Origin: Candidatus Kurthia intestinigallinarum
GTDB lineage: Bacteria; Bacillota; Bacilli; Bacillales_A; Planococcaceae
NCBI RefSeq assembly: GCF_003991225.1
Contig: NZ_JTFC01000031.1
Coordinates: forward strand, 496,001 to 560,000
DNA length: 64,000 bases
Direction: 5' to 3'
A program made the position numbers and the translations under genes. A model generated the notes under the pieces. The model was given only the letters and a program-made list of their open reading frames with translations, was not told the DNA's origin and ran no database searches. Positions 17,446 through 58,970 of the stretch are shown one piece after another (position 1 is the first letter of the stretch; every line of letters begins with the position of its first letter).

Positions 17446-17600
17446 CGCCTTCCTTATAATTCATAGTGGTTTAATAGGTATTGAGGTGTAAAAAAAGGCT
17501 TCCGTGCCCGAAGAAATTATTCTTCCTGTACGAAAGCCTCTGGTTGTCCAGTGAGCATTTTTTAAACGCTAAAGCCTATTAACTTGATAGGAATACTTTA
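17446..17600 (-). promoter_or_regulatory. Leader of the sulfur operon with two copies of a palindromic box
   Basis: Two similar boxes flank the leader: 17574-17595 (core CCTAT-N7-ATAGG) and 17458-17482 (AATTCATAG...AATAGGTATT). Both resemble the AT-rich ATAGGAAT-type sites used by CymR-like regulators of sulfur genes in Bacillales; this resemblance is from memory, not a search. A promoter-like TTGCGC, 17 bases, TAAAGT lies just upstream of the first box on the minus strand. Between the boxes is a conserved-looking stretch, CACTGGACAACCAGAGGC, leading into a terminator hairpin. It does not match the S-box (SAM) or T-box core. Confidence 0.5.
17490..17539 (-). terminator. Leader terminator (possible attenuator) upstream of the sulfur operon
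   Basis: On the minus strand AGGCTT.CGT...AGAA pairs with TTCT...ACG.AAGCCT, followed by seven T. It stands about 50 bases before the ATPase start codon, after a leader of at least 60 bases. Since ktrC upstream already has a terminator inside the repeat, this one most likely belongs to the leader. Confidence 0.7.
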
Positions 17601-17653
17601 ACAGCTATTCCTTTTTTGCGCAAGTAGTTTTCTGAATATTTTAAATTCGTATT

Positions 17654-17794
17654 AAAAAAGTGATTGGGCCAGAATACGTTATTTTCCTTTTTTAGCGTTC
17701 GCAACGAAAAACCGGAACCGCACCACAGCGCGATTCCGGTTTTTCTTATGCTCATATGAACGGTTGTTTTTATACATATGTCCCAGCCTCTTTT
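17654..17794. repeat. Intergenic repeat element, copy A (about 141 bp)
   Basis: The most divergent of four copies. The left end reads GATTGGGCCA and the right end TGTCCCAGCCTCTTTT; inside are the shared block CCTTTTTTAGCGTTCGCAAC and a hairpin AAAAACCGGAA...TTCCGGTTTTT (17707-17744). The right end overlaps the ktrC stop codon, so the hairpin serves as its terminator. Confidence 0.85.
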
Positions 17795-18452
17795 AATGCA
17801 TCATTTTTTTCTCAAAACGATTAATATCTGCATCTGCACCAATAACGATTAAAATATCGCCTTCATGAATTTCCTCTTCCGCCTGTGGTGACACGATAAC
17901 ATCATTACCTCGCTTGATGGCCATAATGTTAATACCATAGCGTGCACGGATATCCATACCAATAATTGTATGACCCTCTAAATGATGGGTCGCCTGAATT
18001 TCGACGATTGAGTGCTCATCCGATACTTCTAAATAATCTAATACATTATTTGATAGCATATTATTTGCGACACGAATCCCCATATCACGCTCTGGGTGGA
18101 CAACATGGTCAGCACCAATTTTACGTAGCACTTTTTCATGATAATCATTTTGTGCCTTCACCGTAATTTTTGGTACACCGATTTCTTTTAAAATAATCGT
18201 CGTTAAAATACTCGCCTGAATATCATCACCAATGGCAACAATCACATGCTCAAAATTACGAATACCTAATTGTTTTAATACCGTTTCATCCGTTGTATCC
18301 GCTGTTACGGCTTCGGTTGCAATTTGCGCAAATTCATTGACGCGCTCCGATGACTTATCAATCGCCATTACATCGGCGCCTTGACTAACAAGCTCATTTA
18401 CAATACTTCCGCCAAAGCGGCCTAGGCCAATGACAACAAATTCCTTTTCCAT
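17793..18452 (-). CDS. ktrC: Potassium uptake regulatory subunit KtrC (RCK protein)
   Basis: 219 aa cytosolic RCK protein with an N-terminal Rossmann nucleotide-binding domain (GLGRFGGS, residues 9-16; AIDKS acidic end of the second strand) and a C-terminal RCK_C domain (about 135-219). It forms a ring that gates a KtrB/KtrD channel; the C-terminal domain of this family binds c-di-AMP. The channel gene is not adjacent; a KtrD-like gene lies at 50338-51696. The neighbourhood (near rnjA, rpoY) matches ktrC/ykqB of B. subtilis, which supports KtrC over KtrA. The stop codon lies in the end of a repeat element. Confidence 0.9.
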   Translation of the reverse strand: MEKEFVVIGLGRFGGSIVNELVSQGADVMAIDKSSERVNEFAQIATEAVTADTTDETVLKQLGIRNFEHVIVAIGDDIQASILTTIILKEIGVPKITVKAQNDYHEKVLRKIGADHVVHPERDMGIRVANNMLSNNVLDYLEVSDEHSIVEIQATHHLEGHTIIGMDIRARYGINIMAIKRGNDVIVSPQAEEEIHEGDILIVIGADADINRFEKKMMH

Positions 18453-29360: not shown

Positions 29361-29816
29361 ATGCCACAAGGAACATATACAGTAAACGTACCATTAAATA
29401 TCGAACAAATTTGGGATTTCGTACAAGATATGAATAACTGGGCACCACTTGTACCCGGCTATATCGCACACGAAATTAAAAGTGAGCGCGAATCAACATG
29501 GGAATTTAAAGGCGACCTTGGCTTTATGAAGAAAAAAGTAAAACTAGGCGTCGACATTAAAGAATGGAATGAACCTTCAGAAGTTATTTTTGACTTAACA
29601 GGGTTATCGGATAATTTTAATGGTGGCGGTTACTTCAAAGCAGAGCGCATCGATGATTACAACACAACGATGACAGGTCATTTAGACATTACTGCTGGCG
29701 GTAAAATGGGCGCGATGATTAACCAAATTCTTAAAAAATTCGTGCCAACAACAACGGAAGAGCTAACAAATGCTATCGTTGAAAAAATGCTAGAAATCAA
29801 TAAAGTTCACTTATAG
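29361..29816 (+). CDS. SRPBCC family protein (CoxG-like)
   Basis: 151 aa with the START/SRPBCC helix-grip fold: VPLNIEQIWDFVQDMNNWAPLVPG at the start, then strands such as GDLGFMKKKVKLGV and a long C-terminal helix. It resembles CoxG/YesL-like carbon monoxide dehydrogenase subunit G or polyketide cyclase type proteins, which bind hydrophobic ligands. It follows the KstD-like gene by 21 bases; probably binds the same class of lipid-like substrate (inference). The convergent TetR gene lies beyond a repeat element. Confidence 0.82.
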   Translation: MPQGTYTVNVPLNIEQIWDFVQDMNNWAPLVPGYIAHEIKSERESTWEFKGDLGFMKKKVKLGVDIKEWNEPSEVIFDLTGLSDNFNGGGYFKAERIDDYNTTMTGHLDITAGGKMGAMINQILKKFVPTTTEELTNAIVEKMLEINKVHL

Positions 29817-29820
29817 ATGC

Positions 29821-29961
29821 AAAAAGAGACTGGGACAAACCACGTCATTTTCTTTTTTTAGCGTTCGAAACGAAAAACCGGAACCACGCCACAGCGTGAT
29901 TCCGGTTTTTTTTATGCTCATAGGAGAGGTTGTTTTTACACTTATGTCTCAGCCTCTTTTT
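29821..29961. repeat. Intergenic repeat element, copy B (141 bp)
   Basis: Ends AAAAAGAGACTGGGACA and TGTCTCAGCCTCTTTTT are inverted repeats of each other with few mismatches. The centre holds TTTTTTTAGCGTTCGAAAC and the hairpin AAAAACCGGAA...TTCCGGTTTTT (29873-29910). The right end supplies the last codons (E-A-E-T-stop) of the TetR gene. Confidence 0.9.
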
Positions 29962-30580
29962 CATTATTTTTAATAACATGCTCAATTAAAAAATCTTTTA
30001 CCGTATAGAGCTCTTCAACAGCTGGCATATAGCTCGCTATGCTTTTTGTTGAGGCATGCAGTGAATACTTTTTAATCGCGGTCCCAAATAAATTAATAAT
30101 CGTCGTGACAATTTTAGGGCTTTCTAGATTTCTTCGAATGCTACCGTCCTGCTGCCCTTGCTCTAATATTCTCGTAATGAGTGCAGGTATTAAGCGAAAG
30201 ACGCGCTGAATTTGTGCGAGCACTTCATCCTCTACATCATAAAATGCCACATATAACTCAAATGTTTCAAGAATTTTCGTCATTTCAAAATTTTCCTCTG
30301 ATAGATAATCTATGTATGCCTCTAAAATCAAATTCAGTTTTTCAAGCGGTGAAATGCCTAAGTTTTCAATATGTTCAAAACGTGGTATTTGATCTTTATA
30401 AAGCTGTGAGACGATTTCAAAAAGAATGAGCTCTTTGCGCGGAAAATGACGAAAAACAGTCGCGACACCAATTTCCGCTTCATCTGCTATATTTTGCATC
30501 GTCGTTTGTTCAAAGCCCTGCGTCGCAAATAGTATCCTGCCCGCATCCACAATCTTTTGTCGTCGTTCAATTTTTTTCAT
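29942..30580 (-). CDS. TetR/AcrR family transcriptional regulator
   Basis: 212 aa with an N-terminal TetR helix-turn-helix (TTMQNIADEAEIGVATVFRHF, residues about 26-46) and a helical ligand domain. It lies between the KstD-SRPBCC operon and an MFS pump gene, so it most likely controls one or both; the 31-base palindrome at 27664-27694 is the best operator candidate. The C-terminal residues EAET and the stop codon come from the end of a repeat element, so the ancestral C-terminus may have been replaced. The ribosome site is GGAGGAG. Confidence 0.87.
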   Translation of the reverse strand: MKKIERRQKIVDAGRILFATQGFEQTTMQNIADEAEIGVATVFRHFPRKELILFEIVSQLYKDQIPRFEHIENLGISPLEKLNLILEAYIDYLSEENFEMTKILETFELYVAFYDVEDEVLAQIQRVFRLIPALITRILEQGQQDGSIRRNLESPKIVTTIINLFGTAIKKYSLHASTKSIASYMPAVEELYTVKDFLIEHVIKNNEKEAET

Positions 30581-30649
30581 AATGTCTCTCCTCCTTATTC
30601 TAAGGTATCCTTCCTTACTATACCCGTCATCTACGACTTTATACTGAAT

Positions 30650-30699
30650 TAATTCGCACTCCTTGCGGCAATGGTTCCAGCAAGGATATAATCGAATTA
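30650..30699 (+). promoter_or_regulatory. MFS pump promoter inside nested inverted repeats
   Basis: Promoter TTGCGG (30663-30668), 18 bases, TATAAT (30687-30692). TCCTTGC (30660-30666) mirrors GCAAGGA (30680-30686), and TAATTCG (30650-30656) mirrors CGAATTA (30693-30699). The two symmetries are nearly but not exactly concentric and cover the whole promoter, as expected for a repressor site. Confidence 0.55.
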
Positions 30700-30739
30700 G
30701 ATGAAAAGCTTGAATTCAAGAAATAGTAAGGAGACGCGT

Positions 30740-31909
30740 ATGAACAAACATAATCGCTTTGCACTCTTCCTACTCATGTTTATTATGTTTATTACTATGA
30801 GTAGTATCGGATTAATTATTCCGATCATGCCTGCTTATTTAAAAACATTTGGCGCGGCCGGTCAAGTACTCGGCTTTCTAATCGCTATCATTGCCTTTGC
30901 GCAATTTATTTTTTCTCCACTAGCCGGCAATCTTTCTGATCGTATTGGTCGTAAAAAACTAATTGTCTTTGGCTTAGTGATGACGGGGATCGCACAAATT
31001 GGCTTTGCACTATCAGGCCATTTAGTTGAATTATTTTTATGGCGCTTCTTAACAGGTGTTGGGTCAGCCTTTATTATGCCATCCGTTATGGCCTATGCAG
31101 CCGACATTACAACGCTTGAAGAACGGGGAAAAGCGATGGGACTGATTGGCGCTGCTATCTCATTTGGCTTTATGATTGGACCTGGTATCGGTGGTGCCTT
31201 ATCGAATGTTAATATCCATTTTCCGTTTTATTTCGCGGGTGGCGCAGCCATTGTAACAGCCATTTTGTCTGTGATTTTCTTACCGAAAACCGCACTGACT
31301 GTTGCAGCAGCATCAGAAGCCTCTAATAATATCGTAAAAGAAATTATGCGCTCCGTTAAAAAGCCTTATTTTATTATGCTTGTCATTGTCTTTATTTTCT
31401 CATTTGGGATTTCAAACTTCCAAGCAACCCTATCAATTTATTTAACATACAAATTTGATTACTCACCGAATGATATTGCCATTTTAATGACTATTGGTGG
31501 TTTTGCTGGGGTTATTATTCAAGGTGTACTACTTAGCCGACTGTTCAAACGATTTGGTGAACTACGCATTGTGCTCTGGAGCCTTGTAGTTGCAGCCATT
31601 TCCTTTATTTTAATGATTTTTGTCAGCGGCTACTTTATTATTATGCTTGTCGCAACCATCTTCCAAATCGCGACGACACTTATTCGCCCAGCAATCAATA
31701 CACTCGTATCAAAATCTGCTGGCAATGAGCAAGGCTATGCAGCCGGCATGAATACCGCCTATATGTCTCTTGGAAACGTCATTGGGCCAGCACTTGCTGG
31801 TACACTCGTTGACTGGAAGCTAGACTCACCATTTGTATTAGGCGCTATTATTTTATTTATAGGCTACCTTGTTTTATATAGCTGGTCACGAAAACAACCA
31901 GCACTTTAA
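30740..31909 (+). CDS. MFS drug efflux transporter (tetracycline/NorA-type)
   Basis: About 389 aa, twelve predicted membrane helices. The motif between helices 2 and 3 is GNLSDRIGRKKLI (motif A), and the antiporter motif C region reads GFMIGPGIGGAL. This is a proton-driven exporter of the DHA1 family; substrates unknown. The ATG at 30740 has AAGGAG 8 bases upstream; an upstream ATG at 30701 has none. It is divergent from the TetR gene and close in sequence type to the second MFS gene at 44258, both with GIGGAL/GVGGFL motif C. Confidence 0.88.
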   Translation: MNKHNRFALFLLMFIMFITMSSIGLIIPIMPAYLKTFGAAGQVLGFLIAIIAFAQFIFSPLAGNLSDRIGRKKLIVFGLVMTGIAQIGFALSGHLVELFLWRFLTGVGSAFIMPSVMAYAADITTLEERGKAMGLIGAAISFGFMIGPGIGGALSNVNIHFPFYFAGGAAIVTAILSVIFLPKTALTVAAASEASNNIVKEIMRSVKKPYFIMLVIVFIFSFGISNFQATLSIYLTYKFDYSPNDIAILMTIGGFAGVIIQGVLLSRLFKRFGELRIVLWSLVVAAISFILMIFVSGYFIIMLVATIFQIATTLIRPAINTLVSKSAGNEQGYAAGMNTAYMSLGNVIGPALAGTLVDWKLDSPFVLGAIILFIGYLVLYSWSRKQPAL

Positions 31910-31915
31910 CAAATT

Positions 31916-32055
31916 AAAAAAGAGACTGGGACAAAACATGTCATTTTCCTTTTTTAGCGTTCGCAACGAAAAACCGGAATCGCGCCACCGCGCGATTCCG
32001 GTTTTTCTTATGCTCTTATGAGAGGTGATTTCTACACGTATGTCAAAACCTCTTT
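31916..32055. repeat. Intergenic repeat element, copy C (140 bp)
   Basis: Starts AAAAAGAGACTGGGACAAAA and shares CATGTCATTTTCC and TTTTTTAGCGTTCGCAAC with the other copies; hairpin AAAAACCGGAATCGCG...CGCGATTCCGGTTTTT at 31969-32006. The right end (TGTCAAAACCTCTTT) is the most degenerate of the right ends. It lies between two convergent genes and serves as a terminator for both. Confidence 0.9.
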
Positions 32056-32067
32056 CTATCGATTCTT

Positions 32068-33198
32068 TTATGCTTTCCCGTTAAATTGACGTAAAAATCC
32101 GGCAACATACGCGACATTCGTATCAAGTAATGCTTCATCTGGACTCATCTGAGCATCATGTAAGCCATATGGCGTGTTGGCACCTGCCCAGAACATTGCG
32201 CCTGGTAATTCTTTTAAGAAGAAGCCAAAATCTTCCCCCGTCATGGCCGCATCACATTCATAGGCCTCTACACCGTCACACTGTGCTGCGTAATCAAGTA
32301 ATGCACGTGCACAATCCTCATCATTGGACACCTGGTAATAGCCAGAGCCCCAGTCAATTGTCACCTCACAATCATAAGCAATCTCGGTTGCCTTACATAG
32401 CTTTACTATACGTTCTTTAATTAACGTCATCGATTCCGCTGACATTGTACGAATAGTGCCTTCAAGGCGCGCATTTTCAGCAATAATATTTTGCACAACA
32501 CCACTCGTCATTTTACCAATCGTTACAACACCACTATCAAGTGGATCGACATTACGGCTAACAATCGTCTGCAATTGTAAAATTAAATTGGCTGCAACAA
32601 CCGTCATATCCTTCGTTAAATGTGGACGTGCCGCATGACCGCCCTGACCTTTTAAGTCGATAAACAGCTCGGATGTATTCGCAAACAGCATCCCTGGACG
32701 CGTCGCAACAGTTCCCACTGGATACTCTGGTGCAACATGGCATGCAAATAAATAATCGGGTAATAAATCGGGGCGCTCTGCCTTCATAAATTCAAGCATT
32801 GGTTTCGCACCACCCGGACTCTCCTCTGCAGGCTGGAAGTAAATAATAATCGTATTATCCGGTTGCTGCTTCGCAAAATCTTGTACAAGACCGAGCGCAA
32901 TCGTCATATGACAATCATGTCCACAAGCATGCATAAACCCTGGATGTGTCGATGCAAATTCAAGTCCTGTCTCTTCTGTAATAGCGAGTGCGTCAATATC
33001 CGTGCGCCAGCCAATTTTTAGCTGTGGGTTTTTCCCATCAATCGTCAAAATAATCCCTGTACGCCATGTATCCACATGAAAATAGGGTTGCATATATTCA
33101 TTAATTACTTCTAATAAATATGCCTGTGTTTTAAATTCCTGAAAGCCAATCTCAGGAATTTGATGTAATGCGCGTCGAATTTCTCGTAGTTCCTTCAT
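32068..33198 (-). CDS. ykuR: N-acetyldiaminopimelate deacetylase (YkuR family, M20)
   Basis: About 376 aa, M20-type amidohydrolase of the lysine/diaminopimelate pathway: removes acetyl from N-acetyl-LL-diaminopimelate. Metal-site segments HACGHDCHM and AEESPGGAKPM are clear, as is FHVDTWRTGI near the start. I place the start at 33198 (MKELREIRRALHQIP), with GGGGATG upstream; length then equals the B. subtilis homologue. It follows dapH by 61 bases in the same direction, as in B. subtilis. Confidence 0.93.
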   Translation of the reverse strand: MKELREIRRALHQIPEIGFQEFKTQAYLLEVINEYMQPYFHVDTWRTGIILTIDGKNPQLKIGWRTDIDALAITEETGLEFASTHPGFMHACGHDCHMTIALGLVQDFAKQQPDNTIIIYFQPAEESPGGAKPMLEFMKAERPDLLPDYLFACHVAPEYPVGTVATRPGMLFANTSELFIDLKGQGGHAARPHLTKDMTVVAANLILQLQTIVSRNVDPLDSGVVTIGKMTSGVVQNIIAENARLEGTIRTMSAESMTLIKERIVKLCKATEIAYDCEVTIDWGSGYYQVSNDEDCARALLDYAAQCDGVEAYECDAAMTGEDFGFFLKELPGAMFWAGANTPYGLHDAQMSPDEALLDTNVAYVAGFLRQFNGKA

Positions 33199-55127: not shown

Positions 55128-55266
55128 AATGAGATTGGGACAAAACATGTCATGTTCCTTTTTTAGCGTTCGCAACGAAAAACCGGAACCGCGCTTTTAC
55201 GCGATTCCGGTTTTTCTTATGATCATAGGAGAGATTGTTTTTAGACGTATCTCCTAGCCTCTTTTT
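55127..55266. repeat. Intergenic repeat element, copy D (140 bp)
   Basis: Starts AAAATGAGATTGGGACAAAA, shares CATGTCATGTTCC and TTTTTTAGCGTTCGCAAC, and holds the hairpin AAAAACCGGAACCGCG / CGCGATTCCGGTTTTT (55178-55215). The right end reads TATCTCCTAGCCTCTTTTT. It fills the gap between two convergent genes exactly, from stop to stop. Confidence 0.9.
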
Positions 55267-57719: not shown

Positions 57720-58970
57720 TTACGCTTTTGTAACATTTAGCACTTGGCCAATTTTAATCGTTGATGATTTTAAACCGTTCCATTTTTTTAAATTCGTTAC
57801 AGTCGTACCATACTTTTTCGCAATTTTTGTTAACGTGTCGCCTTTTACTACTTTGTATGTCATGTTTGCTTTTGCTGTTAATTTTAATTTTTGACCAATT
57901 TTAATCGTTGATGATTTTAAACCATTCCATTTTTTTAAATTTGTTACAGTCGTACCATACTTTTTCGCAATTTTTGTTAACGTATCGCCTTTTTTCACTG
58001 TATGAATTGTCGCTTTTTTAGACGTTTCTGTCACATTAATTGATGTATCTTTACCTGCTGGTGTTACAGTCGTATTTGTCGATGACGTATCTTTTTCATC
58101 CACTGTAGGTACTGTTTTTGAAACATATAAGGTTTGACCAACAAAAATCGTTGTCGTTTTTAATGAATTCCAGCTTGTTAGATTTTTCACTGTTGTACCA
58201 TATTTTTTTGCGATTTTCGTTAACGTATCACCTTTTTTCACAACATAGGTTGTACCTTTTGAAATCGAATTCCCTGTTTGTGTCACGGTCGTATTTGAGC
58301 TAGTAGAACCTGTTGTTAATGGTGCATCGAATTGTGTTAAATCATAGCGTGCGATTAAGTCGTTTAATTTTGTGTTGTAACGAGTATCTGTTGCATATGT
58401 ACCTGTTAAGGCTTTCGTTGCGTCTTTATATGTTTTTGCGTTTTCACGCCACGCTTTACTATAATATTTTGCGTTCCAGCTAACACCGTAACGTAATTTT
58501 TTTGCATTATCTTCTAATGATTCTTTGTAAGAAGGATATTTACGGAATTTTGCTGTGATTGTGTAGTACTGCCCCTTACCGTTATCTTCTAATGTTTTCA
58601 TATTCACATATTGCCCGTTATAGTCACCTTTAATGCCGAATAAGTTATAATTTGGTGCTGAAGCTAGCGCGCTTCGACCATAACTACTTTCTAAAATCGC
58701 CTGTGCCATCATAACCGAGCCATAAATGCCATATTGTTGAGAAAGCGTCACAACATCTGGTGAAACTTGATCAATAAAACTTTCGACAGTGGCTGTTGCA
58801 CTTTTCGCTTTTGCTAAAACTTTTGTGTTTTCCTCAGCTGTATTTGCCGTTAAGTTGCTTACTGTTGATTCTTTTTGCACAGCTGTTGTTGCCTGAACAG
58901 TTGAAGCAAGTGTTGCGGTAGTCACAACGGTTGCCATTGCTGCTGCAAGCCATTTGCCTTTTTGATTCAT
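57720..58970 (-). CDS. Secreted glucosaminidase with three LysM domains
   Basis: 416 aa cell-wall hydrolase. Signal peptide (residues 1-27, KGKWLAAAMATVVTTATLAS), a short linker, then a family 73 type glucosaminidase domain (about 65-215; MMAQAILESSYGRSALAS holds the catalytic Glu, and YNLFGIKGDYNG follows). Three LysM repeats follow at about 238-282, 325-368 and 372-415, each beginning with a KKGDTLTKIAKKYG-type motif. The last two are nearly identical even at DNA level. It cuts the glycan chain of peptidoglycan and binds the wall through LysM. Confidence 0.93.
   Translation of the reverse strand: MNQKGKWLAAAMATVVTTATLASTVQATTAVQKESTVSNLTANTAEENTKVLAKAKSATATVESFIDQVSPDVVTLSQQYGIYGSVMMAQAILESSYGRSALASAPNYNLFGIKGDYNGQYVNMKTLEDNGKGQYYTITAKFRKYPSYKESLEDNAKKLRYGVSWNAKYYSKAWRENAKTYKDATKALTGTYATDTRYNTKLNDLIARYDLTQFDAPLTTGSTSSNTTVTQTGNSISKGTTYVVKKGDTLTKIAKKYGTTVKNLTSWNSLKTTTIFVGQTLYVSKTVPTVDEKDTSSTNTTVTPAGKDTSINVTETSKKATIHTVKKGDTLTKIAKKYGTTVTNLKKWNGLKSSTIKIGQKLKLTAKANMTYKVVKGDTLTKIAKKYGTTVTNLKKWNGLKSSTIKIGQVLNVTKA
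57748..57993. repeat. Tandem LysM-coding direct repeat
   Basis: Bases 57748-57846 and 57895-57993 match at 96 of 99 positions, offset 147 bp, within the last two LysM domains. The near identity at silent positions indicates a recent duplication or gene conversion. The first LysM domain is clearly older. Confidence 0.9.

Follow-up and report, generated by a model that had tools for sequence, protein, structure and literature searches.

The four copies of a short repeat found in the 64,000-nucleotide stretch of Kurthia DNA analyzed here, referred to as the window, belong to a family that we interpret, with a probability of roughly 0.83, as a non-autonomous MITE of the IS1182 family that targets and replaces terminator stem-loops and supplies a hairpin of its own, likely restoring termination. 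The original prediction of a MITE-like family of portable terminators is upheld by ends shared with an insertion sequence (IS), by the replacement of terminators and by the location at gene ends, and termination itself is what these features lead us to expect.

A repeat search of the window yielded one four-copy family, with members at positions 17646, 29812, 31908 and 55117 (162 nt in register) that are 81–83% identical to the reference copy. The common layout anticipated for them was recovered: inverted ends, CCTTTTTTAGCGTTCGCAACG block and CCGGAA hairpin all appear in the alignment of 4/4 window copies. In an alignment of 64 copies from the host genome and one relative the conserved unit extends from GAG to CTC, and 131 bp, the length of 42 of the aligned copies, is the modal value. 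The mobile unit reads GAG(G/A)CTGGGACA...TGTCCCAGCCTC and contains a strong bidirectional hairpin in its middle. Beyond GAG and CTC the copies are unrelated except for a run of A to the left and one of T to the right, both variable in length and in their impurities. As these outer runs differ between copies, the terminal repeat as first drawn contains some target sequence, and the flanking AAAAA/TTTTT are mostly target; the predicted repeat thus stands, but its ends had to be redrawn to the 131-bp unit.

Searching the 3.93-Mb genome for a 27-base core with no more than 3 mismatches returned 130 matches (75+55), and a reversed-pattern control returned 0. The earlier estimate of dozens of copies per genome was right about a multi-copy family, but too low. 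Length-conserved copies are present elsewhere in the genome, conservation spans the unit from GAG to CTC, and the flanks of the copies share no homology. The family is therefore short, non-coding, conserved in length and dispersed in about 130 copies with unrelated surroundings, as expected of a MITE. It was found in 8/8 Kurthia genomes searched, the one named genome with a match being that of Kurthia senegalensis, and a search of plasmids and phages at distant sensitivity returned no copy of the element.

Each element consists of a left end, GAG(G/A)CTGGGACAAAAC, a left linker with the conserved CCTTTTTTAGCGTTCGCAACG block, the hairpin AAAAACCGGAA(C/T)CGCGC....GCGCGATTCCGGTTTTT, a right linker starting with TTATGCTCATATGAG, and a right end, TATGTC(CC/AA)AGCCTC. 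In copy C the left terminal inverted repeat lies at 31922..31937 on the + strand (GAGACTGGGACAAAAC; consensus GAGGCTGGGACAAAAC) and equals the left end of a K. gibsonii IS1182 element over 16 bases except for one G/A difference, and the right one lies at 32037..32052 on the same strand (CGTATGTCAAAACCTC; consensus TATGTCCCAGCCTC, as in the IS). Note that the CCTTTTTTAGCGTTCGCAACG and TTATGCTCATATGAG blocks (consensus positions 28–46 and 87–100) are conserved outside the ends and the hairpin. The right ends fall into two subtypes, TGTCCCAGCC and TGTCAAAGCC, and in the related genome G003 the left end has a variant that contains TTTTACA or TTTGACA. Both kinds of variation may mark subfamilies or different transposases.

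Folding identified the internal, bidirectional terminator-like hairpin at 17707..17744 in copy A (–24.7 kcal/mol on the + and –33.5 kcal/mol on the – strand; z of –5.6 and –7.2 against shuffles) and at 31969..32006 in copy C (–34.7 and –37.4 kcal/mol; z about –8). Its counterparts lie at 29873..29913 in copy B, where a T run is included, and at 55178..55215 in copy D; none of the four was assigned to a single strand. With A5 and T5 flanking a GC-rich stem in both directions and z values from –5.6 to –8.4, the hairpin has the layout of a bidirectional intrinsic terminator. A simple consensus terminator scan of positions 29700–32200 called no terminator, probably owing to a limit of the scan, which would pair the T run into the stem. 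The hairpin is also the best-conserved segment of the element, with a mean column identity of 0.92 versus 0.81–0.87 elsewhere. Of its 17 base pairs, 10 never vary and compensatory changes are too rare for selection on pairing to be visible, so that covariation speaks neither for nor against a role as RNA. From its sequence, the hairpin would be expected to terminate transcription in the cell. That the element is instead a structured RNA gene or a cis-regulator, its inverted ends pairing as RNA, seems hardly credible to us: the full 151-nt stretch does fold better than shuffles (z –3.5), but most of this energy comes from the hairpin, and both ends match a transposon. An Rfam search gave no match at the gathering threshold; weaker matches (leucine leader, Pseudomonas P31 and others) belonged to unrelated families and were set aside as chance matches to a hairpin.

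The copies are not distributed evenly with respect to genes. As judged by a simple ORF caller on 44 copies and 1393 gene junctions, 29 copies lie at convergent junctions, 15 at tandem and 0 at divergent ones, whereas the junctions as a whole comprise 165 convergent, 1066 tandem and 162 divergent cases. The enrichment at convergent junctions (29/44 versus 165/1393) has a p value of 3e-16. A stop codon is found within 30 bp for 39 of the 44 copies, and 0/44 are located inside an ORF. An ordinary MITE might arrive at such a distribution by random insertion into AT-rich intergenic DNA, copies in promoters and operons being purged and a redundant old terminator being lost later. This would require no special mode of transposition, and a study on pneumococcus reports that BOX, RUP, SPRITE and IS are likewise enriched at convergent genes, which is read there as tolerance (PMC3049150). 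The sites without the element nevertheless make this explanation unlikely.

For the analysis of these sites, 800 kb of the host genome were compared with 800 kb of G003. The two are about 80% identical, and the comparison is one between species and not between sister strains. At 12 sites the element is present in one species and absent in the other, and in 12/12 cases a terminator-like hairpin occupies the empty site where the other species has the element, with energies from –14 to –39 kcal/mol. When the element was removed by script and the flanks of the occupied sites were joined, the strong hairpin was mostly gone; the exceptions are two of the 12 pairs that keep a second, adjacent hairpin and a third whose joined flanks are nearly as stable as the empty site. 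The clearest of the pairs sets ATCGGGTTAATTTAAA[element]ATATAGATAAAACTTA against ATCGGATTAATTTAAA-AAAAGGAGGACGCC...GGTGTCCTCCTTTT-ATATAGATAAAACTTA: from either side the sequences agree until the A/T run of the stem is reached, the stem-loop is lost and the basal A/T pairs are retained. Empty sites in relatives with target duplications had been proposed as a check; the empty sites were found, for 12 pairs and for window copies A to C, but target-site duplications of at least 3 bp, which are usual for MITEs although not universal, were present in 0/64 copies. The bases that immediately border the element on its two sides are complementary more often than in shuffles (p 0.002, 64 copies), as the residue of a stem predicts. 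Loss of an inverted-repeat target without duplication is the pattern of stem-loop replacement of the IS1272 type, seen here in a comparison between species; as the empty sites are from a species about 80% identical, replacement in one step is what we infer. Random insertion with later loss of the terminator is opposed by insertions that start and stop at the base of the replaced hairpin, by the missing duplications, and by the improbability of independent secondary deletions ending at identical boundaries. A further site, G000:C175:235553-235692 versus G003:C7:396553-396691, has the element in opposite orientations in the two genomes, which may reflect independent insertion, inversion or the replacement of one copy by another.

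The four copies in the window all lie on the + strand. Copy A (17660..17790) is flanked by two genes of the – strand, on one side by the start of the gene for an ABC-transporter ATPase and on the other by the stop codon of a TrkA-type gene, 2 bp away. Its site is empty in G004, with a hairpin instead, and is also occupied in G003. The region around it (window 17500–18452 versus G003:C7:122512-123309) is about 96% identical in G003, while other loci reach 79–83%; this suggests a recent exchange between the species in which the element was carried along. Copy B (29826..29956) has a CoxG-like gene (+) on one side and a TetR gene (–) on the other. The TetR stop codon is 15 bp inside the copy, within the right terminal repeat (window 29941–29956), so that the element encodes the last residues of the protein, and in three other genomes (G005, G006 and G007) the CoxG gene is followed by a plain hairpin where the host has copy B. 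Copy C (31922..32052) separates convergent genes for an MFS transporter and an M20 peptidase; the site is empty in G003 and G004, which have plain hairpins there. In G005 about 650 bp with IS-like ends lie between the same two genes (L061:2628-3279; right end CCAGCCTC), apparently a decayed IS. Copy D (55131..55261) is also found between convergent genes, for a 468-aa protein without a Pfam match and for an FMN reductase, with stop codons 2 and 3 bp away, and it gave no informative empty site because the left neighbor is not conserved. Separately, window positions 57729–58236 contain three 118-nt direct repeats within one minus-strand ORF, probably a repeated protein domain.

The ends of the element lead to a candidate partner. 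In the host genome, several contig ends carry fragments of an IS1182-family transposase, enclosed by the ends GAAGAGGCTGGGACAAAAC and TATGTCCCAGCCTCTT. Such fragments are to be expected when a multi-copy IS collapses in a draft assembly; no intact transposase gene was recovered from this assembly, the IS being collapsed at contig ends. The fragment matches the DDE transposase model NF033551 over positions 243–486 with 249 bits, to be read against a cut-off of 270 that applies to the full-length protein, and the full-length homologue is annotated as IS1182 family. Beyond its coding sequence the host IS has the same terminal sequence as the element and a terminator-like hairpin just inside each end. 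A full-length IS of 1983 bp is present on the K. gibsonii plasmid pND2a (NZ_CP147848.1). Its transposase is 95% identical to the host fragment over 301 aa, its ends match the consensus of the element over 16 bases on the left and 14 on the right, and it begins a few bases past the stop codon of a recombinase gene and finishes just ahead of a convergent gene. The element accordingly shares its terminal inverted repeats with an autonomous member of its lineage. G005 contains a 179-bp sequence made up of both ends of an IS of this type from which the transposase has been deleted, and this deletion derivative links the IS and the MITE. Farther afield, related ends, GAGGCTG(G/T)GACATAA, are found in ISSau3 and in the IS1182 elements of S. 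epidermidis and L. plantarum, and those of the L. salivarius IS1182 element are more distant.

At one intergenic site the MITE (G000:C175:381090) in one species corresponds to the end of an IS1182 copy (G003:C7:254752-255067) in the other, which points to a target that the two would share. The same site bears on a further explanation, in which a domesticated terminator family owes its spread chiefly to gene conversion or ectopic recombination and its persistence to selection, its IS-like ends being a relic. The strong conservation of the hairpin and the presence of copy A in G003 within a region of unusually high identity would fit this explanation; yet the flanks offer no homology usable for conversion, the ends have kept their match to an IS that the genus carries today, and one site is occupied by the IS in one species and by the MITE in another. 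We therefore regard domestication as very improbable and retain the IS1182-family MITE that replaces terminators.

IS1272, an IS1182-family element of staphylococci, replaces stem-loops including terminators without target duplication (PMC5678879, PMC4923244). IS1272 and TnSha1 of Staphylococcus resemble the Kurthia element in the transposase family and in that many of their targets are intrinsic terminators whose stem-loop is removed; they carry a transposase or genes (TnSha1 3 kb) and have few copies, whereas the Kurthia element is gene-less, measures 131 bp, is present in about 130 copies and brings its own terminator. The pND2a IS is similar to the MITE in its matching ends, in the hairpins inside them and in its site between stop codon and convergent gene, but it carries a transposase and its internal hairpins differ in sequence from that of the MITE. 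SPRITE of Streptococcus pneumoniae (PMC3049150) is also a dispersed repeat resembling a Rho-independent terminator, located near gene 3' ends, strongly enriched at convergent genes and without an established target duplication; it differs in its AAAA/TTTT terminal repeats, in its number of about 30 copies per genome, and in that no empty site was available for it and the text consulted names no partner IS. The pneumococcal BOX and RUP are non-autonomous and intergenic with inverted ends, as is the Kurthia element, but they produce target duplications and are not terminator modules. The open-access literature yielded nothing on point about terminator-bearing MITEs of the IS1182 family or about repeats in Kurthia, nor a description of a high-copy MITE that puts a terminator of its own in place of the resident one, although ISfinder may list such an element. 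MITEs, terminator-like repeats such as SPRITE and the stem-loop replacement of IS1272 are each already known.

Copy number, ends shared with an IS, hairpin replacement, absence of duplication and gene-end position are established at the DNA level, and on this basis a mechanism can be proposed. The transposase of an IS1182-family element would act in trans, recognizing the GAGGCTGGGACA ends and then excising or copying the element. Insertion would occur at palindromes with the potential to fold into a stem-loop; in practice these would be the intrinsic terminators that closely follow stop codons. The target stem-loop would be removed, so that the basal A/T pairs alone stay. The A5-GC-stem-T5 hairpin of the element, readable on both strands, would then take over termination for one or both neighboring genes. 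As termination is likely restored at the site, insertion would be nearly harmless, which would explain the high copy number. Targeting alone could account for the positions of the copies, and the internal hairpin for the tolerance of so many. As hairpins are found at both ends of the parent IS, the terminator device may derive from the IS.

A paired-end pattern with a spacer of 84–114 bases occurred in 4 of 299 Bacilli genomes, with 0 for reversed-pattern controls. One of the four, G298 from another Bacilli family, contains 39 exact GAGGCTGGGACA sequences (control 0) and its own high-copy family of short elements (loci L174–L186) with GAGGCTGGGACA ends and a different core, 134 to 185 bp in length, in which the arms are conserved and the central hairpin varies between copies. 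This kind of element, with shared ends but other cores, thus recurs outside Kurthia in other Bacilli families. That IS1182-type elements with GAGGCTGGGACA ends repeatedly spawn, across Bacilli, MITEs that put a mobile terminator in the place of a resident one is a generalization whose odds we consider evenly balanced. If it is true, a transposon would have partly standardized termination at gene ends in such genomes, and the internal terminator would have evolved as a device to make the targeting of terminators tolerable. MITEs are usually regarded as passive debris. The target of the Kurthia MITE is a functional signal, which the element removes and apparently restores, and this provides a concrete reason for its abundance. 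With it, stem-loop-replacing transposition, reported for the staphylococcal IS1272, extends to a high-copy MITE of a different Bacilli family, and the approximately 130 sites of the element form a natural set for comparing native and substituted terminators between related species.
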